Shown here: piece by piece, positions 2,507 through 17,708 of the stretch | How positions within the stretch are numbered: the stretch's first letter is position 1 | Layout of the letters: each line of letters begins with the position of its first letter | Assembly: GCA_021773015.1 (NCBI GenBank) | Contig: JAJFKW010000001.1 | Coordinates: forward strand, 2,835,305 to 2,899,304 | Source: Woeseia sp. | GTDB lineage: Bacteria; Pseudomonadota; Gammaproteobacteria; Steroidobacterales; Woeseiaceae | DNA length: 64,000 bases | Reading direction: 5' to 3' | Program-made: the position numbers and the translations under genes | Notes under the pieces: generated by a model | Told to the model about the DNA's origin: nothing | Databases searched by the model: none | What the model saw: only the letters and a program-made list of their open reading frames with translations

Positions 2507-3457
2507 TCAGGCTGACTCAATACTCAGCAGTACAGATTTCGCAATCTGTATGTCCTGTACCGCGACGCCGGTCAAATCGGCGACGGTAATCTCCCGGTCG
2601 TTTCGCCGCCCGTCTTGCGCGCCGGAAATGATGTTGCCTAGTTCCTTAAGGTTGGATTCTTTGATGTAACCATCTCTGATCGCATAGTGCGATTCCCCAT
2701 GCGAAACACATTGGGAAATGGAGTCGGCAATACAATGATCGGCTTTCCTAAACAGTGCCGAATCGATCTCTTGCTTTCCCCCACCGTCGCTACCCACGGC
2801 CGTGATATGGGTACCGGACTTGATCCATTCTGCCCGGATCAGCGGCTTGGTTGACGGCGTCGCAGTAACGATCAAATTACAGGCCAAACAGAGTTTCTCA
2901 AGAGATTCGACAACTTCGATTCGTAGACCGTTTGCCTGCATTTGCTTCGCTAGTTCAGTCGCTTGGTCAACACGTCTAGCCCAGATTGTCACGTCTTTGC
3001 AGTCGGTGGCATATTGCAAATAGTCTAGCTGCAGACCTGCTTGAACGCCCGCACCGACGATACCAATTCGGTGAATTGAACTCGGCGCAAGGTACCTTGC
3101 GCTTAGACAACCAGCAATTGCAGTTCGTACATCCGTCAGATGACCGCCGTCATCCAGTACAGCTTGCGGAAATCCGGTCCTGGCGGAAAAAACAATCGTT
3201 AAACCAGAGCCGTTAGGTAGATCGAGCGTAGCGTTTTCGTAGAACCCGGTGGCAATCTTAACGGCGAAAAAATCGTCATTATGAATGTGCCCATATTTGA
3301 TATGACATTCGCCAGGCGGCTCCACCAAACCAAGATGACCAACCGGCGGAACTGTCGCTCGGCCAGAAGAGTACGCCGCAAACCCCTCTTCAATCAGGTC
3401 AATTGCTTTTTCGACATTAAGTGCAGCGACAACTGCAGAACGATCGTATACCTTCAC
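2507..3457 (-). CDS. Ornithine cyclodeaminase / mu-crystallin family protein
   Basis: The 316-residue length and the Rossmann signature GIVGAGVQAGLQLDYL (about residues 133-148) fit the ornithine cyclodeaminase/mu-crystallin family. A DVRTA motif and the later VGSDGGGKQEID stretch are also family features. Members use NAD(P) and act as ornithine or lysine cyclodeaminases, as alanine dehydrogenase, or as cyclic ketimine reductases; the exact substrate cannot be read from sequence. The start is GTG at 3457, two bases after the TAA of the aminotransferase gene, so the two are one operon. That pairing suggests the aminotransferase product, a keto acid or cyclic imine, is the substrate. Confidence 0.85.
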   Translation of the reverse strand: MKVYDRSAVVAALNVEKAIDLIEEGFAAYSSGRATVPPVGHLGLVEPPGECHIKYGHIHNDDFFAVKIATGFYENATLDLPNGSGLTIVFSARTGFPQAVLDDGGHLTDVRTAIAGCLSARYLAPSSIHRIGIVGAGVQAGLQLDYLQYATDCKDVTIWARRVDQATELAKQMQANGLRIEVVESLEKLCLACNLIVTATPSTKPLIRAEWIKSGTHITAVGSDGGGKQEIDSALFRKADHCIADSISQCVSHGESHYAIRDGYIKESNLKELGNIISGAQDGRRNDREITVADLTGVAVQDIQIAKSVLLSIESA

Positions 3458-3459
3458 TG

Positions 3460-4596
3460 TTATTGTCGTAGCGGCAGGTTGAGAAATTCGGACGACGCCA
3501 AAAATTCACCGATCTTCGCTAATCCCGGTTCCAAATGCGATTTGGGCGCGCCAATACCCACTCGAAAATAACCGTCTAAACCGTAAACGTCACCTGGCAA
3601 GATGAAAACACCCAATTCGTCACGCAGTCGTTGGGCCAATTCAGTTGAATTTATCGCACGGTTGTAGCGAACAAACGCCATGCCGCCTGCCTTAGGCGGT
3701 ATAAGTGAAACTGTATCCGCGTTTACTGCAACCCAGTCAATAAGCAGCTGCAAATTCTCGCGCAGTATGCTCTTACTTCTTCGCAATACTCTTTGTCGAA
3801 GCTCCGGTTGCAGCACGCGTTCTGCAACAAATTCACTGACGGTCGAAGTTGTAATCGATGTGTAATCTTTGCGCTGCCAAGCAGAATATATCTCTTTTGC
3901 GGGTCCCGCCAGCCAACCGATTCGCAAGCCGGGCAATGCCATAGCCTTCGACAATCCGTTGGTGGCGATGGCCTTGTGGTACAAGTCCGCAACACTCGGT
4001 GGCTCCTCTCCGGCCAATTCAGATCCCTTATAAACTTCATCGGCATGCAGATAGATGTCACGATTTCGAGCAATTTCAACAAGAGCGGACATTGCATCAT
4101 TACCAAGAGTCGCACCGGTCGGATTATTTGGATTACAGATAGTGATAAGCCGCGTCTTGTCCGACACGGTCTCTCGCAATTGTTCGATGTCCGCACCCCA
4201 CTCGGCGCTCTCGTCATGGCGGACTGTCTTAACGTCAACACCAATGGCGCGCGCCCAACCGACTATCTGCAAATAATTAGGCGTAAATACAACGATCTCG
4301 TCGCCAGGTTCCAACAAAGACATCACCATCAGGAAATTCGCTTCCGAGGACCCATTGGTTACGATAATGTCGTCCGGCCCACGGTCTGCATACAAACTGG
4401 CTATCGTCGAACGCAGAGAAACTTCCCCGTTTGTCCAGCCATATCCCAATTCCAGTTGTAACAACGCCTCGATTTCATCCTTATCAAGCAAATCGTTGAT
4501 AGACATTGGATGCACGCCGCTATCCGATAGGTTCAGCGGAACGACATTCTCAAACAATGATTGAATGCGTTCGAGCGAGAATTCTTCAATTTCCAT
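3460..4596 (-). CDS. PLP-dependent aminotransferase, class I/II
   Basis: This 378-residue protein has the fold-type I landmarks in order: TNGSSEANF near residue 80 (phosphate-binding region), NPNNPTG at 155-161, HADEVYKG with the pyridine-contacting Asp at 186, TNGLSKAMALPGLRIGW with the PLP lysine at 217, and the C-terminal R.G.G motif (FRVGIGAP) that binds the substrate carboxylate. It transfers amino groups in the cytoplasm; related enzymes include aspartate/aromatic aminotransferases and PLP cyclases such as capreomycidine synthase, so a lyase or cyclase role is possible. It is cotranscribed with the cyclodeaminase-like gene downstream. Confidence 0.88.
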   Translation of the reverse strand: MEIEEFSLERIQSLFENVVPLNLSDSGVHPMSINDLLDKDEIEALLQLELGYGWTNGEVSLRSTIASLYADRGPDDIIVTNGSSEANFLMVMSLLEPGDEIVVFTPNYLQIVGWARAIGVDVKTVRHDESAEWGADIEQLRETVSDKTRLITICNPNNPTGATLGNDAMSALVEIARNRDIYLHADEVYKGSELAGEEPPSVADLYHKAIATNGLSKAMALPGLRIGWLAGPAKEIYSAWQRKDYTSITTSTVSEFVAERVLQPELRQRVLRRSKSILRENLQLLIDWVAVNADTVSLIPPKAGGMAFVRYNRAINSTELAQRLRDELGVFILPGDVYGLDGYFRVGIGAPKSHLEPGLAKIGEFLASSEFLNLPLRQ

Positions 4597-4855: not shown

Positions 4856-6244
4856 CTATCTGTCGACCTTAGTTCGCTCTGAATAACCCGTATTTTGGTA
4901 GAAAACCCAATAGCAAGCCAGGGCGAGCAATGAACCACATACAACGTCGACGAGATAGTGTTGTTCGGTTGTCAGCGTAGAGATCGCAATCGCAAGCGCC
5001 CAAATACCACAAAACCATTTCCACAAAATGGACCGAGGTGCAATTACCAGTGCCGCAAGCACAGAGGCGCTGACGTGCAGGCTGGGGACACAATTCGCGG
5101 GTGTGTCTACGCTTTGGATCATGCCAAGCAGTACGATGCCGAGCCCATCCGAATCCGGAATTGCGCCCAGCTCCGTGCGTAATATTGTCGTTGGGAAAAA
5201 AACGAAGACGAGTTGGCTCAACAGGTTGATCGCTAGTATCGAATAGAAATAGGCGTTCAAGCGTTCATTATCGCGTTCACTTAAGTACGCAACGATAAAA
5301 AGAATCGGGTAGCTCGCATAGATCCAAACTGTCCATGGCAGCTGCGGCACCCAGCGCTCAAATCCGCCAGGACTCAAAACCTCCGGTGTCGCAATATGAA
5401 ACCGATTGCTCAGCAAATAGGCCGTTGATGTAACGATGAACAACACCACGCCCCACGCATACTTGTTGCGCTGATTGAGCAGCATTGGCAGACGGAGAAA
5501 TGGGCGCTTGGTGCCACTCACGGTACCAAACAACATATCGAACCATGGCAACAGAAAACCGAAATTTCCCCGTCCCCGCTGATGGTGTAATCCATGTCGC
5601 CGTATCATCGAAAAAAAGCTCCACTCTGCGCTGCGTGGGAATGCATCGTAGTTAAGGTGACCGAGCGTGTTTGCAGCAATACTCAATACCGGGAGAATGA
5701 CAATCGCCACGTAGTGAAAGTCGCGCAACAACATTACGCTCAACATGACTGTCGAAAGCAACGCAGATTCAAACCAATGAAAGCTGTAAGTGGAATACGG
5801 AGTCGGAATAATCGACGAGTGATGAACTCGGTGAACTTTGCGCATGAACCAGGGCCGGTGAAGAAGGCGGTGGCAGAGGTAAAAGTGAATTTCGTTCCAG
5901 AAAAAGATCAGTACACAGTCGGCCAAAATTTTGGCAACGGTAGCTTTTGTCTGTATGTGCACCCAGCCTGCTTTCATCGCAACTACGGTCAGCACACCGT
6001 AAAGTCCGAAAATGCCAACGCTAAGCATCGATGCGGCTATTTCCCGTTTTCGTTGATGCGGTAGTTGCGCTCTGGTATCCAGTACCGCGCCTATGCCCAG
6101 TGCGGGCAGCAGGCGCAATGTCAAAAAATGACCGATGCCGGCGAAGCCCAGATAGAGCACTAAAAACGACACACTGCCTAGGGCAAATATCGCAATTAGT
6201 GATAGCTTGGGAATTACCTCAGTTAGGATCAATTCAGGCGTCAT
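4856..6244 (-). CDS. Fatty acid hydroxylase (sterol desaturase) - PAP2/Aur1-like fusion
   Basis: Residues about 110-245 carry the histidine clusters of the membrane-bound diiron fatty acid hydroxylase superfamily: HFYLCH (120-125), HRLLH, HRVHH (138-142), GHLNYD (196) and HGLHH (217-221), in a multi-helix membrane context. Residues about 300-450 are a second membrane domain with CVPSLHVS (His390) and TTEQHYLVDVVCG (His429, Asp433). These are the paired histidines and aspartate of PAP2/Aur1-type phosphotransferases or phosphatases. The protein may therefore hydroxylate a lipid chain and also hydrolyse or exchange its phosphate head group at the inner membrane. It is the last gene of the lipid-type cluster, 129 nt after the unknown gene. 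The exact substrates are unknown. Confidence 0.85.
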   Translation of the reverse strand: MTPELILTEVIPKLSLIAIFALGSVSFLVLYLGFAGIGHFLTLRLLPALGIGAVLDTRAQLPHQRKREIAASMLSVGIFGLYGVLTVVAMKAGWVHIQTKATVAKILADCVLIFFWNEIHFYLCHRLLHRPWFMRKVHRVHHSSIIPTPYSTYSFHWFESALLSTVMLSVMLLRDFHYVAIVILPVLSIAANTLGHLNYDAFPRSAEWSFFSMIRRHGLHHQRGRGNFGFLLPWFDMLFGTVSGTKRPFLRLPMLLNQRNKYAWGVVLFIVTSTAYLLSNRFHIATPEVLSPGGFERWVPQLPWTVWIYASYPILFIVAYLSERDNERLNAYFYSILAINLLSQLVFVFFPTTILRTELGAIPDSDGLGIVLLGMIQSVDTPANCVPSLHVSASVLAALVIAPRSILWKWFCGIWALAIAISTLTTEQHYLVDVVCGSLLALACYWVFYQNTGYSERTKVDR

Positions 6245-6373
6245 GGTCAGAGATACTATTAGCGACGAAGTGCATATTTGAAGCAGACAAGGATACGCCG
6301 CGTATTTTCTTAGTCAGTGACGAATCTCTCAGTGTTCAGTCGACTCGAGTTTTTCGGCAGTAACTGAGAACCG

Positions 6374-7252
6374 CTAGGCATTACCGGTCGAATTTGCCGC
6401 CTGTTTCTTGCTCAGTAACCTCGAATACAACATTTCCGACGCCATGCCGTGAATAACGAGTCGAGACCCGGCGCGCAGCGTGCTGAGTGGAATGAGCGGG
6501 TGGCGATTGTTAACCAACAGCACGATCTCCGGATCGTCCAACAGCGTTGCGGCATAAATCGCAATCGTTTCATCTAATTGCAGCGAATTGGTCGCTCGCC
6601 AGAAATCATTGTCAGTCAAGAATAACTGGTAAGTCGGCGTAAACATCTCAATCGCGGTTTGGATGTCTATAAAGTTGCACCAGCGATTGGGCAGTTCGTC
6701 TATTTCGAACGACGCCTCGCTTATCATGCTGAAGTCGAGCGACTGGCTAGACTCAAGCTGCTTGCCTTGTTCCCGCAGTGCCTCATTAAGGTTAATGACA
6801 AAGTTGAACAAATTCAGATCGTGTTTGACAAACAAATTATCCTTAAGGTCATCCAGCGTTTTTGGTGTTAGCGGCGAGCATTCAACTTCTACACCAGAGT
6901 TGGCAGCAATGAACTCCAGAATTCTGCTGCCAATGTGGAAATGCCGCAGTATCAACCAATTGGCTTCCGGGCTGACAAAGTACTTCAAGCCGGTCGCCAA
7001 AATCCAATGCAACGTTCTCGGCGCAGCCCAGCGTTTTGGTACCACCACCTTGATAATTTGCACAAGTATGATCAATGCACGGGCGATAGGACGAATGAAC
7101 GGTAGTAGATATTGCCGGGAACGCGAACTGGAATCCTGTAACCACTGTTTTTTGACTTCATCCGGAAGCGGTGTGCTGCGATCCAGATAAAGCGCGAGCC
7201 AGGGGCTGGGATCATTTGGGTCCTTGCTACCGAGATGGGACGGCATTTCCAC
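6374..7252 (-). CDS. Unknown protein of the lipid-type cluster, 292 aa
   Basis: I do not recognise this family. The protein is soluble-looking apart from a hydrophobic stretch at about residues 52-72 (PFIRPIARALIILVQIIKVV) that may contact the membrane. It is rich in His/Asp/Glu, with patches such as RHFHIGSRILEF and KHDLNLFNFVINLNEAL, and has a hydrophobic helix near LDETIAIYAATLL. The GTG start (7252) overlaps the stop of the KAS-diiron gene by one base (TAGTG); an ATG lies two codons later at 7246. The tight coupling suggests it acts with the synthase, possibly as a partner subunit or chaperone. This is inference. Confidence 0.65.
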   Translation of the reverse strand: MEMPSHLGSKDPNDPSPWLALYLDRSTPLPDEVKKQWLQDSSSRSRQYLLPFIRPIARALIILVQIIKVVVPKRWAAPRTLHWILATGLKYFVSPEANWLILRHFHIGSRILEFIAANSGVEVECSPLTPKTLDDLKDNLFVKHDLNLFNFVINLNEALREQGKQLESSQSLDFSMISEASFEIDELPNRWCNFIDIQTAIEMFTPTYQLFLTDNDFWRATNSLQLDETIAIYAATLLDDPEIVLLVNNRHPLIPLSTLRAGSRLVIHGMASEMLYSRLLSKKQAANSTGNA

Positions 7253-9138
7253 TAAACGGATTCCAGTTGCATAAGATATAGCTCAGCGGTTCGTTTCGCT
7301 GTGCTGACGATATCGCGCGCTGCGTCCACGTCTATGGCCATTACCAATTTGACGGCCTCAAGCCAGCGATTCAGGTGATTTTCGTCATTCTCCCCGTGAT
7401 ACTCGAGAAAGCGAAATGACGTTGCCGGCAAATCCAACTGGCCTTTTAGGTCGGGTAGCAGCGCAGGAATAATGCGTTGCCCGGTTCCTTCGATTACGTA
7501 AATTGCGCCGAGCATGCCGACAGCATTTATTTGCGTAGCATAAGCATGCAGATAACTATTCAGCGCTTCGCCACCGGGATTGCGTTTGAGTAAGTCAATA
7601 TTGGCAACCGTTCCTCCAGCCAAGCGATAATCGTCGAACAAAATGTTGTAGTCGAATTGCTCCTCATCGGCATGTTGCGTAATGATTGAGATCAGTCCGC
7701 CGTACGGCGTGCGAATATTTGCGGTCGCCTCACGCATCCAGAGGCTGCCCTCCCGAACCTGCGGAATCCAGTGCTCCATCCAGTGCAGGTAGTCGGCGAC
7801 AGTGAGGCGTTGCTCACGAATCCTTCGGATCAAGTCAGAGCGCCAAGCTCGGGACCGGTAGTCGTGCCAAATTTGCGCAAGCTCTTGCAACAACGTCGCA
7901 AGCGCTCCGGATGCATCGTCGGGATTGTGCGGCGGTGCGACCAGGTCCTCTGTTCTCTGTGCAATGGGATCAGGACTCTTGGCGCCTCTGTCTGCAATAG
8001 TTGCTGTGTCGTTTGCCGCATCGACAACTTCGAACATCATGAATCCGACACTAAAACGCCCCGATTCGGGTATAAAACACAGTATCTTCTCACCGGCTTT
8101 GAGCTCGTGCGTTTCGAGAAATTCGGCCAGCATGATGAATATGCTCGCCGCTCCAGTATTCCCGCGCCACGCGAGATTGCTATACCACTTGCGCTTCGGA
8201 ATCGACAAATTGGCATTCGCCATGAGTTCTTCAACAACCGGAATGAATTTCTCCGATGAATAGTGACATAGAAAATGGTCGACGTTGTCCGAGTGCATCA
8301 CGTTGCCCTTAACTAAAGAGACATACTCGTGAATTGCGACGTCGAATAAATGCGGCAGCAATCGGATATCCTGGCGTAAAGCCATTGCGCCTTCAATCTC
8401 TGCTTCCCCGCACGAAGGGTAGTCCAGATAGGTTTTATTGCCAGTCTTGGCAGAACCAAATTGCATACAGACCGGGTAATCACCAGAAAACGACTTTTGG
8501 TGAATCCACTGCAACTTAATTCGCAGTGGGTTGCTGTCGTTGGCCCTATTTGAAAGCAACAGCGCTCCGGCGCCGTCCGACAACATCCAACGCAAGAAGT
8601 GTGCGCCAAAGTCTGCGCCATAACCCTGTGGACTAAAACGTGATGCCTTAAAAAGTCGCGACGGTAAATCTGTGCCGACGACCATAGCAGTTCGGTACGC
8701 ACCAAGTTCGATTTGACTTGCCGCGTGCGCCATCGCGCTAACACCCGCCATGCAAATCCCATTGCTGGAATAAGTTGCCATTGGCGGTGCCGCCATCTCG
8801 CCCTGCAGCATATTGGAGAATCCGGGCATCGCATTGTCACCACCGGACGTTCCGGTCGCCAGCAGCTCTATATCGTCTATCTGCAAATTCGACTTTTCGA
8901 GAGTATTGTTGACCGCGTTTTCTGCCAGTTGAACGTTGGAGTAGATCGTCTTGCCATTTTTATCGATTGCGTAGTGGCGGGTTTGAATGCCGTTTTCCGC
9001 TAGTACGCGGTTTTTGATACGACTCGCTACCTTATTGATCGGCGCGATATAGGCGTCAATATCGTCATTTGCGACGGCTTCGCCAGGCAGGAAGTAGCCG
9101 CTGGAATCGATGTAGACCTGGTTAAAGTGTGTTGGCAT
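7252..9138 (-). CDS. Beta-ketoacyl synthase III fused to a haem-oxygenase-like diiron domain
   Basis: Residues 1-375 are a FabH-like thiolase fold: the catalytic triad is visible as Cys129 (SSNGICMAG), His292 (DHFLCHYSS) and Asn327 (RGNTGAAS), with TGTSGG near 97 and DGAGALLL near 188. After a short Pro/Asp-rich linker (about 376-412), residues 413-625 are an all-helical domain with QHADEEQ (His489), YVIEG (Glu550) and H..., reading HxxxDxxHxxxW at 581-592. That last motif is characteristic of haem-oxygenase-like diiron oxidases (UndA/SznF type), which oxidise or decarboxylate acyl or N-containing substrates. A condensing enzyme feeding an oxidase in one chain suggests formation and immediate oxidative tailoring of a ketoacyl product. 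It sits 11 nt after the desaturase gene. Product unknown. Confidence 0.85.
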   Translation of the reverse strand: MPTHFNQVYIDSSGYFLPGEAVANDDIDAYIAPINKVASRIKNRVLAENGIQTRHYAIDKNGKTIYSNVQLAENAVNNTLEKSNLQIDDIELLATGTSGGDNAMPGFSNMLQGEMAAPPMATYSSNGICMAGVSAMAHAASQIELGAYRTAMVVGTDLPSRLFKASRFSPQGYGADFGAHFLRWMLSDGAGALLLSNRANDSNPLRIKLQWIHQKSFSGDYPVCMQFGSAKTGNKTYLDYPSCGEAEIEGAMALRQDIRLLPHLFDVAIHEYVSLVKGNVMHSDNVDHFLCHYSSEKFIPVVEELMANANLSIPKRKWYSNLAWRGNTGAASIFIMLAEFLETHELKAGEKILCFIPESGRFSVGFMMFEVVDAANDTATIADRGAKSPDPIAQRTEDLVAPPHNPDDASGALATLLQELAQIWHDYRSRAWRSDLIRRIREQRLTVADYLHWMEHWIPQVREGSLWMREATANIRTPYGGLISIITQHADEEQFDYNILFDDYRLAGGTVANIDLLKRNPGGEALNSYLHAYATQINAVGMLGAIYVIEGTGQRIIPALLPDLKGQLDLPATSFRFLEYHGENDENHLNRWLEAVKLVMAIDVDAARDIVSTAKRTAELYLMQLESV

Positions 9139-9149
9139 ATTTGGGGTAA

Positions 9150-10028
9150 CTATCGAGCCTCGGAGGCGGGCAATAATGAGTGGCTTCGAAGAGAAGGCTT
9201 AAAGATACTAAATATATAGGTTCGCAACACATACCAGAAGAAATTAGATTCAATCAAACGCTTGTCAATGTGTTGTTCGATTTGTCGGTGTTGCTCTGGC
9301 AAGCTACTCCAATGAAGTAGCGGCTGTTTGTGGTGCGCAGTGTGCAGGCCGATATTGAAAAATACCCAGTTTATAGCGCCCGTAAAATTGCGCGCAAAAT
9401 TCCATTCCGAAACACCGTTTGCGTGCGCGTGCTGCAGATAATTGGCTCCGAGCAACCAATGTAAGCAAATCATTTGTGGGATGAACACATAAACTAGCGT
9501 TTTAATCGGATCTATCAAAAATAGTAACAGCAGCAAACCAATCAGCGAAGCGTATTGTGCACAGATCCAATGAAACGCGTTAGGGTTTCTACTTCTACTT
9601 TTGATAATGTGCTTGAAGAAAAAAGGGTACAGAACAAATATTACCTGAATCGGGTGTAGCAAATGACCTAACAAATGATTGTGGTCGCCGCCAAACCGGT
9701 AGGTTCGCGCAAGGTCACCGTGGCCGTGGTTGTGCAAATGGTGATTACCATTGTGCGCGATCTCGAATACGTAGACGGGGTGACCTTGTAATACGCTGCC
9801 TGCAAGGTCTGTGCATCTATTGAGTAATTTGCTTCTCCACATCGGTAAATGGGCATGGTTGTGATTGATGACGCCAATGCCGATCCAGACAGTTACCATG
9901 AAAAAATAGAGTGGCAGCGAGAAGGCGTAGATCCACTGCCAAAGAGCCAAACTTGGCGCAAGCAAAAAATAGCTTATGCTGTGAAGGTCGCGAGTATTAT
10001 TTAGCACAACCAGCCGTGTACCCCACAT
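9150..10028 (-). CDS. Membrane fatty acid desaturase
   Basis: The 292-residue protein has four to five hydrophobic segments and the histidine boxes of integral-membrane acyl desaturases: NHNHAHLP (about 55-62), HNGNHHLHNHGHGD (about 92-106), LQHAHANG (about 198) and the final HTAHH (about 229-233). These bind the diiron centre that inserts a double bond (or hydroxyl) into an acyl chain at the inner membrane. The first box is at the usual distance from the second. It opens the lipid-type run of genes; an upstream gap of 143 nt after the Ldh-family gene could hold a promoter, though I saw none clearly. Regioselectivity cannot be told. Confidence 0.85.
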   Translation of the reverse strand: MWGTRLVVLNNTRDLHSISYFLLAPSLALWQWIYAFSLPLYFFMVTVWIGIGVINHNHAHLPMWRSKLLNRCTDLAGSVLQGHPVYVFEIAHNGNHHLHNHGHGDLARTYRFGGDHNHLLGHLLHPIQVIFVLYPFFFKHIIKSRSRNPNAFHWICAQYASLIGLLLLLFLIDPIKTLVYVFIPQMICLHWLLGANYLQHAHANGVSEWNFARNFTGAINWVFFNIGLHTAHHKQPLLHWSSLPEQHRQIEQHIDKRLIESNFFWYVLRTYIFSIFKPSLRSHSLLPASEAR

Positions 10029-10171: not shown

Positions 10172-11173
10172 TCAGCTGTCGCAAAGCGATTCGATTTGTT
10201 CCACCAATTGCCGATTGATTTTTCGCGGGGCGTCAGACATGCGGTTGTTATGACGCCTTTGACCCGGCAGCCTCGCGCCATCGATGCTTTCATATTTTGC
10301 GAAGAACTCTTCGCAGTGCGTAACCCAATCGCTACCGGCGAGCATTTCTGGTGAGATTGCCAGGAAAAACTCGCCGCCACGCGGCGGACCGCCGTCACCA
10401 TTGTCGGTCTTTACCGCTTCGAAGCTAAACTGCTCGCCAGTGGCACCTGCAGCCAACAACTCGACCATCAGTGCAATTGCCGAACCCTTGTAGCCCCCGA
10501 ATGGCAATAACATGCCCTTGAGTATATCGCTGGCATCCGTCGTCTGATCGCCAGACGCATTGAGTCCGGTGCCCAACGGCACCTTGTGGCCGTCGCGCGC
10601 GGCAATTTGAATTTCGCCTTGCGCCATGGCTGCCGTCGCCATATCGATAACCATCGGATTTTTCCCAGGGCGCGGCCACGCGAAGGATATCGGATTGGTA
10701 CCGAATAGCGGCCTATTGCCACCAAACGGTGCCATGAAAGGCATGTAACAAACGCACGCCAAACCTATTAGATCATGTGCTGCGATAGCCTCAGTCTCCG
10801 GCCACAATGCCGCAAAGTGATGTGTATTGGTGATCGTCATCGCGGCAATACCGACGGTCTTGGCGGCAGTTGTCAGTGCTGGAATGCCGCGTTTGATCGA
10901 CAACGGCGTAAAGCCGTTGTCGCCATCAACGCGAATCAGTGCTGGCGTTGTGTTTTCAACTCTTGGGTTCGCGTCGCCTCTGACTTTGCCGCTCCTTAGA
11001 GATGCGATGTATCCCGGCACCCTAAACAGACCGTGCGACATAGCGCCATCGCATTCGGCTGCCACCACGGTTTGTACAAGCGCAGCAGTATTGGTCTTAT
11101 CGCAACCGTTCTTCGTAAAGACTTCTCTCGCGAGTTTTTCGATATCGCCGAGCGTCAATTCAATGGTGGTCAT
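10172..11173 (-). CDS. Ldh-family (malate/L-lactate/ketimine) oxidoreductase
   Basis: The protein follows the Ldh/YbiC/DpkA fold: an N-terminal helical region, SHGLFRVPGYI with the catalytic His near residue 50, THHFAALW, MPFMAPFGGNRPLFGTNP, the cofactor-region MVIDMATAAMAQGEI, and the C-terminal GGYKGSAIALMVELLA. These enzymes use NAD(P)H and reduce 2-oxo acids or cyclic ketimines such as piperideine-2-carboxylate. Start choice: GTG at 11185 is possible, but ATG at 11173 (MTTIELTLGDIEK) matches the family N-terminus better. Given the cyclodeaminase-like gene at 2507, an imine-reducing role is plausible but unproved. Confidence 0.85.
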   Translation of the reverse strand: MTTIELTLGDIEKLAREVFTKNGCDKTNTAALVQTVVAAECDGAMSHGLFRVPGYIASLRSGKVRGDANPRVENTTPALIRVDGDNGFTPLSIKRGIPALTTAAKTVGIAAMTITNTHHFAALWPETEAIAAHDLIGLACVCYMPFMAPFGGNRPLFGTNPISFAWPRPGKNPMVIDMATAAMAQGEIQIAARDGHKVPLGTGLNASGDQTTDASDILKGMLLPFGGYKGSAIALMVELLAAGATGEQFSFEAVKTDNGDGGPPRGGEFFLAISPEMLAGSDWVTHCEEFFAKYESIDGARLPGQRRHNNRMSDAPRKINRQLVEQIESLCDS

Positions 11174-11226
11174 GCGTGATTCCACATAAAAGAACTGGTG
11201 CAGTAACTAGCCCGGTTAGCCGGCGA

Positions 11227-12978: not shown

Positions 12979-14697
12979 TTACTGCCAATTGGCACTGTCC
13001 CAATTAAAGTTATCCCACAGAGTCGCGCCGCTACATGCGTCACCGACGCCGTCGCCATCGGTGTCCTGTTGGTCTGCGTTCGCTGTTACGGGGCAATTGT
13101 CAACTTCGTCTGCAACGCCGTCATTGTCGTCGTCCGTATCGCCGTTGTCGCCCACGCCGTCGCCATCTGCATCGGATGTTTCAGTCGGGTCAAGCGGGAA
13201 GAAGTCGGCAATGTCAGCCACGCCGTCGTTGTCATCATCATCGTCGGCGTTGTTACCCACGCCGTCGCTGTCGGTGTCTACCGATTCGGCGGGATCCAGC
13301 GGAAATGCATCTGCGGTGTCGTCGGTACCGTCATCGTCGTCGTCGGTATCTGCATTGTTACCAACACCATCGCTGTCGGTGTCTACAGACTCGCTTGCAT
13401 CGAGCGGAAACTCGTCTGCAGCGTCGTCAACACCATCGCCATCGTCGTCGGGGTCTGCGTTGTTGCCAACACCGTTGCCGTCCGTGTCCACTGTCTCCGC
13501 GGGATCAAGCGGAAAGGCGTCGTCGGTATCGGCAACCTGGTCATTATCATCGTCGTCGTCGCAGGCATTACCGTTCGCATCGGAGTCGCTGTTGAGCTGA
13601 TCGGTATTGGCATCGGCCACACAGTTATCGATATCGTCTCTAATGGTGTCACCGTCCGAGTCGGGCACTGTCGATGCCGGCGTTGGGTCTGCGCTTGCCG
13701 AGCCATCCGACAGCGGTGTGGTGTCAACAGATACGCCAGTCGTTGCGATCTCATCTGTAAGCACTGTCTCAATGTCTCCAACCGAAATATCGGTTCCAGG
13801 AATCATCAGTAGCAGCGGGTCTTGCGTAATGGTCGTCGCTATATCTGTCACGTCGGCTAAATCGGCGACCGGGGTGCCGTTTGCACTACCGTCGATGGCA
13901 CCATCCGCCAAGTCTTCGGCGAGTGCCGCGAGCACGATGTCGTTGGTGACCGTTGAGGCAGGATTGTTGGTCATGCTTTCATCGGTGACCGCTTGAATGA
14001 GCGCGGTGGCCGCCTCTATCGCGGTTCGGTAGCCGGCGACGTCGGATTGTTCGCTGCCTTCGTCCGTATCGGCTGTCAATAAGGGCGGCGTTACAAAAAT
14101 GTCCACCGAATCCAATAAAGAGAACCCAAACGTCGAGGCGATTTGCTGGCCTGCGGCAGCAACGGCGGACGCGACCTCCGTGTCGCTGGTCGTACCGTCG
14201 CCGTCACCGCCAAACACGCCGACGGAATCGGCATTGGCGATTGCAACTTCTACAGCAAGTGTGGTGAGCGGTGACCCGTAAATTGAGTCACCAGCAGTTA
14301 CCCGGCTTGCGTCGACAACTGTGCGCATTACCGTTAATACCGGTGCAGCACCCGTCGTAATATCTAACGTATCGGCATCAGCGGTAAATTCGAGTAGCAC
14401 AGGGCCGCTCGTCGTATCAGGAATTTCCAGGTCAGTAATCGCGGCGGTTGCATCTGTCTCACCTGTGTCGATCTGCGCACCCTTCCAGTCGCTGGCGGTC
14501 GTGTCTATCGCGAATATTGCGACCGAAGCGCTAGCCAGCGGACCTTTCACACCGCCACCAAGTAGTGGTACTTGAACAACAGGTGGCGGAGATGGAGGTG
14601 GTGTCGTCTGGCGCGTGCTGCTAGAACCGCCGCCACATCCCGCTACAAGGAGTAGCGGCAGCAACACGCTAATTAATTTGGTAACTCGGTGGTGCAT
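12979..14697 (-). CDS. Thrombospondin type-3 repeat lipoprotein, 572 aa
   Basis: The signal peptide ends in the lipobox LLLVAGC (Cys21), followed by GGGSSS and a Pro-rich linker, so the protein should be outer-membrane anchored. Residues about 45-345 are an acidic, Ala/Thr/Asp-rich region with a helical segment. From residue 346 there are calcium-type TSP3 repeats, with D.D.DG.GD/NN.D patterns: a cysteine-bearing unit (DNCVADAN), four nearly identical 35-residue units, and a last DNCPVTANADQQ unit. The chain ends in an aromatic tail (LWDNFNWDSANWQ). A strong AAGGAG lies ahead of the ATG. Likely roles are calcium-stabilised adhesion or surface spacing. Confidence 0.85.
   Translation of the reverse strand: MHHRVTKLISVLLPLLLVAGCGGGSSSTRQTTPPPSPPPVVQVPLLGGGVKGPLASASVAIFAIDTTASDWKGAQIDTGETDATAAITDLEIPDTTSGPVLLEFTADADTLDITTGAAPVLTVMRTVVDASRVTAGDSIYGSPLTTLAVEVAIANADSVGVFGGDGDGTTSDTEVASAVAAAGQQIASTFGFSLLDSVDIFVTPPLLTADTDEGSEQSDVAGYRTAIEAATALIQAVTDESMTNNPASTVTNDIVLAALAEDLADGAIDGSANGTPVADLADVTDIATTITQDPLLLMIPGTDISVGDIETVLTDEIATTGVSVDTTPLSDGSASADPTPASTVPDSDGDTIRDDIDNCVADANTDQLNSDSDANGNACDDDDDNDQVADTDDAFPLDPAETVDTDGNGVGNNADPDDDGDGVDDAADEFPLDASESVDTDSDGVGNNADTDDDDDGTDDTADAFPLDPAESVDTDSDGVGNNADDDDDNDGVADIADFFPLDPTETSDADGDGVGDNGDTDDDNDGVADEVDNCPVTANADQQDTDGDGVGDACSGATLWDNFNWDSANWQ
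13102..13521 (-). repeat. Four tandem 105-bp repeats encoding TSP3 units
   Basis: Codons for residues 393-532 of the lipoprotein fall into four consecutive 35-codon units, each opening with D.FPLD and containing the DTD.DGVGNN run. DNA similarity between units is high, so slippage or unequal crossing-over could change copy number. Confidence 0.8.
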
Positions 14698-15995: not shown

Positions 15996-17708
15996 ATGAG
16001 TCTCGATCATCCATCAACGGATTCGGATGAGCCAAGCCATTGGGGATTGATTGACCGGATATACGAAACCGGCCAGAGCCCCAAAGCATGGCCTTTGTTG
16101 GTCGACAGTCTCTTCAACAGTTTCAGGTTTGACGAAAATATTGATTCAGGCAGTGCTGCACTTGGCACATCTTTGCATGAATTGTGGCCGCATTTCGAAC
16201 GCGCGCTTTCGCTGAATACCTATATCGACGGTATTGCAGACAATACGACTGCAAGCCCATTTGCGGATGTTCCTTATCCGTTTGTTGTCGTCAACAATAC
16301 GTTCGACGTTGTTTACCGCAACGCGGAGAGCGTAAATCTGTTCCCGCCGCAGTCCGGGGTTGAGGTCGGTGTTCAAAAAATCAGTATCACAAATGCTGAT
16401 ATTTCGAGGAAGTTAACAACACTGGTAGCTGGCATTCCGGCAACAGAGCCGGCCCGATCGATCACGCCAATATATCGTGATGAGCAATCGAATAACCACC
16501 TCGTCGCTATATCGTTACCCAGAATGACGGGCGGGAACCTACTGGCGCTAGGATGGTTCGATCCGATTGATCAAGGCCTGTTGACGGCTGAGCACTTTCG
16601 GCAGCTGTATCAGTTGACGGACGCTGAGTCCAAAGTGCTAAACCAGGTTCTTCGTGGTCAAGAGACGGATCAGGTTGCGAAATCCTTGGTCATCGGATCG
16701 GCGACTGTAAGAACGCACCTCAAGAGTATCTATCGAAAAACAGCCACAACCGGAAAGACGGACCTCATTCAAACGGTGCGTTGTGGTCCGGCTTTGTTGA
16801 GCCGGTTTTTGGCGCCGCGGACCGAGATGTATGCGGATACAAAAGAGGCTCGAAATCGGCGTAATCAGATACTAGAGTTGCACGACGGCCGCGAAATGGG
16901 CTTTGCAGAGTTTGGTGCACCCAATGGCAGGCCGGTATTGCTGGTACACAATTTGATTGGCTCACGCCTACAGCTACCGACTAGTGAAGACAATTTGGTT
17001 GCACAGAATCTGCGGCTGATTGTGCCGGACCGCCCGGGTGTTGGCCTTTCAGGTTTTCACTCGCACCGGAGTTTTCATTATTGGACAAATGACATCGGCG
17101 AGCTGGCGGATCATCTGCGCATACAGAAATTTCACCTCATCGGTTCGTCAATGGGTGCGATCTATGGATTGGCATTGGCGCAAGGCCTGCCGGACCGCAT
17201 TGAGCGTTACGCGATGGTGAGCTGTTTGCCAGAAATCGCAGACGTTAAGGCAGCGCGCAAATTGTTGCCAAGCACTTGTCGCTTGTTCTTGCTGGCACGC
17301 TATGCACCAGCAGTACTCGAAATTATCCTGAAATTCATCGTTAGGAAGGGGCCCGAGGCGTATCTCGATGAACTTGTGTGTGATTTACCGGCCCTTGATC
17401 AACGCCTATATGAGGATCCGGCGTTTAACCGAATGATGGTTCGCGCGGTTAGCGAAACGTTGCGCCAGGGCACCGCCTCAATATTCAATGACATTCGCAT
17501 AATGGCAAGCCCATGGCAGCTATCACCAGAGTCGATATCCATTCCAGTGCACTTTTGGCACGGTGAAGACGACACTATGGCGCCACTCCCCATGATCCGG
17601 GAATTTGCGGCAAAAATCCCAGACTGCAAGCAACGGTTGGTCGAAAGAGAATCGCACTGGTTACTGTTTCGGCAGTGGAATGCGATTATCGCCGAATTGC
17701 TGCGGTAG
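15996..17708 (+). CDS. LuxR HTH - alpha/beta hydrolase fusion, 570 aa
   Basis: Three parts are seen. Residues 1-200 resemble the sensor of the preceding regulator, including a PAS-like PFVVVNNTFDVVYRN. Residues about 205-265 are the LuxR helix-turn-helix (LTDAESKVLNQVLRGQETDQVAKS then SATVRTHLKSIYRKT). Residues 290-570 are an alpha/beta hydrolase with GSSMG (nucleophile Ser385), GEDDTMAP (Asp526) and ESHWL (His554), so the catalytic triad looks complete. DNA-binding and hydrolase activity in one chain suggests it senses, cleaves or binds an ester, lactone or similar ligand to control transcription. No transmembrane segment. Fusions of this type are known but little characterised; the ligand here is unknown. 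Confidence 0.85.
   Translation: MSLDHPSTDSDEPSHWGLIDRIYETGQSPKAWPLLVDSLFNSFRFDENIDSGSAALGTSLHELWPHFERALSLNTYIDGIADNTTASPFADVPYPFVVVNNTFDVVYRNAESVNLFPPQSGVEVGVQKISITNADISRKLTTLVAGIPATEPARSITPIYRDEQSNNHLVAISLPRMTGGNLLALGWFDPIDQGLLTAEHFRQLYQLTDAESKVLNQVLRGQETDQVAKSLVIGSATVRTHLKSIYRKTATTGKTDLIQTVRCGPALLSRFLAPRTEMYADTKEARNRRNQILELHDGREMGFAEFGAPNGRPVLLVHNLIGSRLQLPTSEDNLVAQNLRLIVPDRPGVGLSGFHSHRSFHYWTNDIGELADHLRIQKFHLIGSSMGAIYGLALAQGLPDRIERYAMVSCLPEIADVKAARKLLPSTCRLFLLARYAPAVLEIILKFIVRKGPEAYLDELVCDLPALDQRLYEDPAFNRMMVRAVSETLRQGTASIFNDIRIMASPWQLSPESISIPVHFWHGEDDTMAPLPMIREFAAKIPDCKQRLVERESHWLLFRQWNAIIAELLR

Follow-up and report, generated by a model that had tools for sequence, protein, structure and literature searches.

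A conserved four-gene set with a ketosynthase-diiron oxidase fusion and a DUF6999 protein, probably a lipid biosynthetic operon, in Woeseia and other Proteobacteria

The window analysed here is a stretch of 64,000 nucleotides from Woeseia sp. (assembly GCA_021773015.1, contig JAJFKW010000001.1, positions 2,835,305 to 2,899,304 of the forward strand). It contains four neighbouring genes, which encode a membrane oxygenase of the fatty-acid-desaturase family (DES), a ketosynthase fused to a haem-oxygenase-like diiron oxidase domain (KAS-HDO), a DUF6999 protein, and a membrane fatty-acid-hydroxylase-family domain (FAH) fused to a PAP2/AUR1-like domain (Table 1). An earlier note on this DNA had placed them on the same strand, successively 11 nt apart, overlapping by 1 nt and 129 nt apart, and these coordinates and gaps were exact to the base. 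The domains that it had assigned to the desaturase, the ketosynthase-diiron fusion and the hydroxylase-PAP2 fusion each scored above the Pfam cut-off. Its "unknown coupled gene" does have a Pfam family number (PF22523, DUF6999), to which no function is assigned; the start codon of this gene is GTG at 7252, and an ATG lies two codons downstream.

Table 1. Features of the gene set, of its surroundings in the window and of compared loci (bare coordinates refer to the window)
Feature	Location	Strand	Evidence or remark
DES, fatty-acid-desaturase-family membrane oxygenase, 292 aa	9150..10028	-	PF00487 E 5.5e-20, three His boxes
KAS-HDO fusion: StlD/DarB-like ketosynthase (1-373) and haem-oxygenase-like diiron oxidase domain (about 400-628)	7252..9138	-	PF08541/PF08545 and PF14518
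DUF6999 protein, 292 aa, mostly helical	6374..7252	-	PF22523 E 8.4e-129
FAH-PAP2: membrane fatty-acid-hydroxylase-family domain (about 1-260) and PAP2/AUR1-like domain (about 285-460)	4856..6244	-	PF04116 E 3.7e-24, PF14378 E 3.7e-11
Whole gene set, DES > KAS-HDO > DUF6999 > FAH-PAP2	4856..10028	-	Order permuted relative to other loci
Ornithine-cyclodeaminase-family gene and aminotransferase gene	2507-4596		Intergenic gap of 2 nt; immediately downstream of the set
Ldh_2 gene	10172-11185		
572-aa protein with repeated Asp-rich stretches	12979-14697	-	
LuxR-type DNA-binding domain and alpha/beta hydrolase in a single protein	15996-17708	+	
Decayed-looking set, Verticiella	L101:7972-9092		Ketosynthase half in two frames
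DUF6999 near a transposase gene	L014:9389-10447		Probably a remnant
DUF6999 in pieces	L017:1707-2358		Probably a remnant
His-rich protein, 185-188 aa	L112:6654-7211; L015:2623-3189; L031:11941-12507		No Pfam match
Nearest separate PAP2 and its neighbours	L173:4753-9820		
PLD-bearing Variovorax loci	L059, L066, L069, L076, L079, L096, L097, L102, L104, L110		PF13091

The spacing suggests that the four genes are cotranscribed. Scans for regulatory signals were unusable, with 2 promoter-like sites against 9.6 expected and 14 terminator-like sites against 9.5 expected. As the earlier note had claimed, the window holds no acyl carrier protein (ACP): the genome gave three PP-binding matches, none of them within C1:2835305-2899304, the window itself. 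Pfam scans of 28 open reading frames (ORFs), a subset of those in the window, named neither a thioesterase nor an exporter.

A species-level scan, with one genome per species, returned 464 DUF6999 relatives, and the best 80 were kept for locus comparison; these are the closest of the 464 and thus favour close relatives. The order FAH > DES > KAS-HDO > DUF6999, with all genes co-directional, was found in 75 of the 80 loci, and the median gaps over the 75, estimated from alignment ends, were -2, 15 and 2 nt. Genera among the best 80 included Achromobacter, Bordetella, Variovorax, Collimonas and Cellvibrio. The exceptions were L032, which meets a contig end; L075, in which the desaturase does not adjoin; L101, in which the ketosynthase lies in two frames and neither hydroxylase nor desaturase adjoins; and the Variovorax loci L066 and L069. 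The set in L101, from Verticiella, looks decayed, and a desaturase match is absent from that whole genome. The two Variovorax genomes carry the hydroxylase and DUF6999 at one place and DES with KAS-HDO elsewhere, and the set is kept complete in them though split in two. Linkage was also counted over 25 loci, the window and 24 chosen others (18 of these 24 from the best 80 and six from other searches), with families present in at least four loci being listed. The four genes were present in 23-25 of the 25, and any other family occurred in at most eight, at scattered positions; the further frequent clusters were antisense or out-of-frame shadows within the four genes. The four genes, with their five domains, are a conserved unit held together across many proteobacterial genera. 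The earlier note had set lack of conservation in advance as what would refute it, and conservation is what these comparisons returned.

The occurrence of DUF6999 was patchy. A set of 60 genomes from the family and order to which the window belongs yielded it once, in the window's own; among genomes drawn from the class it was found in 7 of 369 and from the phylum in 9 of 398 (the window's own counted in both), and among 14 control genomes only in Caulobacter vibrioides. The two draws were unselected, and they gave 13 DUF6999 genomes besides that of the window, in 11 of which a ketosynthase and an HDO adjoin DUF6999. Five of the 13 have the complete set (L012, L025-L028); L029 has a desaturase, in two frames, and no hydroxylase match; L013 has the KAS-HDO fusion alone beside DUF6999; and in L015, L016, L030 and L031 the ketosynthase and the HDO are encoded as separate genes. 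The two genomes without an adjoining KAS-HDO are represented by L014, where DUF6999 lies near an integrase-core transposase gene in a genome that has no KAS-HDO, and L017, where DUF6999 is broken into pieces; both are probably remnants. Plasmid records gave DUF6999 in one case, a Pseudoalteromonas megaplasmid, and viral contigs gave no match to peptide patterns of the KAS-HDO fusion. We conclude that this is probably a self-contained lipid biosynthetic operon with a patchy and presumably horizontal spread. Horizontal acquisition by the window's lineage was considered solely because, of the 60 genomes from its family and order, the remaining 59 have no DUF6999. Base composition showed no sign of recent transfer, as the G+C content of the set is 49.7% and that of 5.17-kb stretches of the window averages 51.7% (standard deviation 1.25, minimum 49.4%).

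The ketosynthase half of the fusion is close to StlD and DarB. The closest solved structure by sequence was StlD (5gk0, E 5.4e-62), and the AlphaFold2 model of the fusion (pLDDT 76.3, pTM 0.54) matched StlD 5gk2 best, with Z 39.0, a root-mean-square deviation (rmsd) of 2.9 over 353 aligned residues and 32% identity. The model has the thiolase fold, and the Cys-His-Asn triad C129/H292/N327 is intact and conserved. Elsewhere in the genome nothing comes close to StlD/DarB: this gene reached 346 bits and the runner-up 46.5. The best FabH-type hidden Markov model (HMM) scored 92.4 bits against a cut-off of 249. Since HMM, sequence and model all place the protein closest to StlD, yet it stays below the curated cut-off, it was regarded as a near relative of StlD/DarB and a non-member by the curated test. 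The "condensing enzyme" of the earlier note is a ketosynthase, as had been claimed, and can be specified further as StlD/DarB-like.

The second half of the fusion matched PF14518 with 37 bits (gathering score 28.9). Its putative ligand set in the window is E463, H489, E550 and H581xxxD585xxH588, and E463, H489, E493, E550, H581, D585 and H588 did not vary among 12 members, which comprised both fused and separate forms. The HxxxDxxH pattern is the HDO signature, and with these residues the ligand set required for a binuclear site in this superfamily is complete. Among the separate HDOs, that of L030 scored 41.2 bits with PF14518 and that of L112 gave no match. A profile built from 12 rows, fused and separate members together, was then searched against the drawn genomes. 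With a threshold of E <= 1e-30 it matched nine of the 398 genomes from the phylum, identical to the nine with DUF6999. In the 369 class genomes, at E <= 0.001, it matched 37, of which five reached E <= 1e-90 and were all DUF6999-positive; the other 32 were weaker (1.7e-27 to 9.9e-6) and represent a distinct HDO group, beside which no StlD/DarB-like ketosynthase was found in the seven short loci inspected. The independent information in these searches is the absence of the HDO type from DUF6999-negative genomes and its presence in two genomes outside the profile, G602 and G720.

The DUF6999 protein matched PF22523 with 428.9 bits (gathering score 27). Its model is helical (pLDDT 83.9, pTM 0.84), with one hydrophobic segment near residue 49, and R103, H104, H144, D145, D196, N222, D227, H268 and E273 are invariant in six diverse members. 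A catalytic metal role is possible. Fold searches were not informative, the best Foldseek E value being 1.8 and the best VIA-align match having Z 4.0 and an rmsd of 5.7 over 154 aligned residues. An HD-domain-like metal site (H104, the HD pair at 144-145 and D227) was considered and set aside, as fold evidence for it was absent.

Both membrane oxygenases scored well above their Pfam cut-offs, DES with 72.6 bits against 29.7 for PF00487 and FAH with 86.1 bits against 31 for PF04116; neither DES nor FAH-PAP2 gave a sequence match in the PDB at E <= 1. The His boxes are complete in both enzymes, namely H56xxxH60, H92xxxHH97 and H229xxHH233 in DES and H120x4H125, H125xxxH129, H138xxHH142 and H217xxHH221 in FAH. 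In an alignment of 76 sequences, the window DES deviates at seven of the polar sites with a conservation of 97% or more. Three separate diiron chemistries had been proposed for this locus, and the ligand motifs of all three oxygenases are consistent with them.

The FAH of the window shares 33-40% identity with 26 operonic hydroxylases and at most 27.3% with 26 others from its own genome and relatives. In the hydroxylase tree, for which 26 of 29 loci were used (L146 and L151 had no ORF by the filter, and L160 is the window itself), the operonic sequences and the window grouped with a support of 0.57 in a clade that also holds one other hydroxylase (L145); the operonic clade alone had a support of 0.21. 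From the identity pattern, it is most likely that the window FAH is the operon's own hydroxylase with a PAP2 domain added, the support in the tree being modest.

The PAP2 domain matched PF14378 with 43.6 bits (cut-off 27), and its residues PSLH390 and H429xxxD433 form a His-His-Asp triad that we take to be AUR1-like. The phosphotransferase-like domain of the earlier note is thus present in the window; it is not part of the conserved set, as none of the 80 loci has a PAP2 match. No second FAH-PAP2 fusion was found among the matches listed in 321 genomes: a match in G150 that runs across the junction contains stops and represents a separate PAP2 gene, the nearest one found (37.6% identity). The nearest separate PAP2 adjoins an epimerase-type SDR and a 1114-aa AMP-binding-ACP-aminotransferase fusion (L173), a neighbourhood that resembles a sphingoid-base cluster. 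In 10 of the 11 Variovorax loci of the best 80 and in L025 and L026, the hydroxylase is immediately preceded or slightly overlapped by a PLD-family (PF13091) gene, with two PLD domains per gene in the two examples scanned. A PLD relative about 6 kb downstream of the set in 16 Achromobacter loci probably has no connection to it. Together, the PAP2 and PLD associations may point to a phospho-group on the product.

The operon itself is established, whereas its chemistry is read from the protein families and the fusion; the product is inferred to be a lipid or lipid-like metabolite. At a little below even confidence, we propose that two acyl chains are condensed to a ring and oxidatively decarboxylated towards a resorcinol-type lipid, which is then modified. 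The ketosynthase would receive the chains from carriers of general fatty acid metabolism and join them in the manner of StlD and DarB, giving a product of the 4-carboxy-2,5-dialkylcyclohexane-1,3-dione type. UndA takes away a beta-hydrogen and CO2; DarB has DarA as its partner for aromatisation. The fused HDO would bind the new carboxylate and decarboxylate it oxidatively, as UndA does on fatty acids; the resulting ring double bond (cyclohex-4-ene-1,3-dione) would tautomerise to a resorcinol-type core, so that the HDO would fill the role of DarA in dialkylresorcinol pathways. Because cyclohex-4-ene-1,3-dione is a tautomer of resorcinol, a single polypeptide, the fusion, would accomplish the work of the two proteins DarB and DarA. 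Both membrane His-box oxygenases would then hydroxylate or desaturate the chains or the ring at the membrane, and DUF6999 would be the standing partner of KAS-HDO, either as a further metalloenzyme or as a membrane-anchoring or partner protein. Finally, the PAP2 half here, and the adjacent PLD-family gene in Variovorax, would act on a phospho-headgroup of the hydroxylated product. Published work agrees with parts of this scheme: DarB is there described as making 4-carboxy-2,5-dialkylcyclohexane-1,3-diones and StlD a related dione (PMC5515871), darA and darB together as yielding dialkylresorcinol in a heterologous host (PMC3992019), and UndA and other HDOs as binding the substrate carboxylate at iron (PMC13185094).

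Several observations weigh against this proposal. The ketosynthase scored 344.8 bits with NF005293, the StlD/DarB family model (curated cut-off 450), and 278.8 bits with NF053539, the DarB model (curated cut-off 550), and seven relatives scored 310.8-413.7 bits with NF005293, all below 450; the cyclising activity may thus not be conserved. By sequence profile, the nearest solved structure to the HDO, and the one good match, was the uncharacterised 3dde, not UndA, and the structural matches listed for the fusion model all fell on its ketosynthase half. Matches to FAH and DES are absent near the split-type sets, in which ketosynthase and HDO are separate genes, and in L013, so the modification by membrane oxygenases and the step on a phospho-headgroup would not be universal. 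In L015, L031 and L112 that place is occupied by another protein, His-rich and by eye membrane-like, which precedes the ketosynthase, HDO and DUF6999 genes; it had no match in L012, L013, L016 or L030. In this split-type version, for example that of the Pseudoalteromonas megaplasmid, it perhaps stands in for FAH and DES. Two DUF6999 genomes, G110 and G132, lack this HDO type. Moreover, the rows of the HDO profile include all five matching class genomes and seven of the nine matching phylum genomes, and those matches therefore hold by construction. This bias weakens the co-occurrence argument; the linkage of the four genes does not depend on the profile, so the weight of the competing explanations is left unchanged.

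Two other chemistries were considered, each of them rather unlikely in our judgement. The first is that the ketosynthase, like OleA, couples two acyl thioesters in a head-to-head manner, that the result is a long beta-keto acid or a ketone, and that HDO, FAH and DES oxidise this open chain with no ring being formed. OleA was the second-best structural match (Z 33.6), and a beta-keto acid as the substrate of the fused HDO would likewise suit a carboxylate-binding oxidase. However, StlD matched clearly better both in Z (39.0) and in identity (32% versus 19% for OleA), NF005293 gave 344.8 bits whereas the best FabH-type model reached 92.4, and no additional gene in the conserved unit could serve as oleB, oleC or oleD, ole genes elsewhere in the genomes not having been searched for. 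The second, with an equally small chance, is fatty-acid tailoring. Here one special fatty acid would be primed or elongated by the ketosynthase and would be the substrate of the HDO, as an UndA-like decarboxylase or as a hydroxylase, while FAH and DES would alter chains bound in phospholipids. The ketosynthase fold is FabH-like, and the FAH and DES families often act on lipid chains. Nevertheless, the ketosynthase is remote from the FabH models, and the fusion itself, together with the absence of the HDO type outside DUF6999 genomes, suggests that the substrate of the HDO is the product of the ketosynthase. That unrelated genes lie together by chance, as the presence of DUF6999 in a single genome of the family and order and the unusual gene order of the window might suggest, is extremely improbable and is refuted by the 75 of 80 ordered loci, by the linkage in 23-25 of 25 and by the split yet complete Variovorax sets.

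A more specific form of the ring-forming proposal, which we regard as doubtful, is that KAS-HDO is a one-chain, DarA-free phenolic-lipid synthase whose product is an oxidised two-chain ring lipid able to receive a phospho-headgroup through PLD or PAP2. If that were true, UndA-like aromatisation would be a new HDO reaction, DUF6999 a new pathway family and the product an undescribed class of membrane lipid, with hundreds of encoding loci in a collection that holds a single genome for each species.

The surroundings of the set in the window were also inspected. The ornithine-cyclodeaminase-family gene and the aminotransferase gene were rejected as parts of the set, since they had no conserved linkage with it in the compared loci; the aminotransferase is related to capreomycidine synthase/GntC models and lies below their cut-offs. 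The Ldh_2 gene was rejected on the same grounds. Farther away, the 572-aa protein has repeated Asp-rich stretches of the type DTDSDGVGNNADTDDDNDGV, which by eye are of a calcium-binding type, and another single protein combines a LuxR-type DNA-binding domain with an alpha/beta hydrolase.

The best 80 of the 464 DNA stretches that encode a DUF6999 relative include well-studied genera. No description of DUF6999, PF22523 or the gene set was found in open-access papers, and subscription papers could exist; within the open-access papers searched the cluster is undescribed, as the earlier note had supposed. Should the product prove to be a new lipid, an overlooked membrane or signalling chemistry would exist in common soil, water and host-associated bacteria. 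The fusion offers a way to probe the action of HDOs on lipid-like substrates, and the steady partnership offers an initial functional clue to DUF6999.

Among known systems, the closest are StlD/DarB and the dialkylresorcinol pathway of darA-darB (flexirubin, arcuflavin), with which the Cys-His-Asn triad and the HYSSE motif are shared and which hold the closest ketosynthases by HMM, sequence and model. In contrast to StlD and DarB, the window ketosynthase falls below the family cut-offs and is fused to an HDO. In contrast to darA-darB clusters, the set has two membrane oxygenases and DUF6999 instead; only FAH, DES, KAS-HDO and DUF6999 are conserved, with no further gene as DarA (this concerns the conserved unit, and no DarA model was run). 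OleA-type head-to-head enzymes share the fold, but the identity is only 19% and the conserved unit has no possible ole partner gene. OlsE and other lipid hydroxylases of the FAH family share the Pfam family and the His boxes; however, the window FAH scored 20 bits with the OlsE model NF052566 (cut-off 475) and grouped, with modest support, with the operonic hydroxylases. Known HDOs such as UndA, BesC, SznF and MboA share PF14518, the HxxxDxxH pattern and further invariant His and Glu residues, whereas the window HDO is fused to a ketosynthase and has 3dde as its nearest solved relative. HDOs appear to be specialised for amino-acid substrates according to PMC13185094, while the partner genes of the window HDO point to lipids. 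Taken together, the operon is real, widespread and apparently undescribed, and it combines parts of known kinds into a fusion and a gene set that are apparently new variants.

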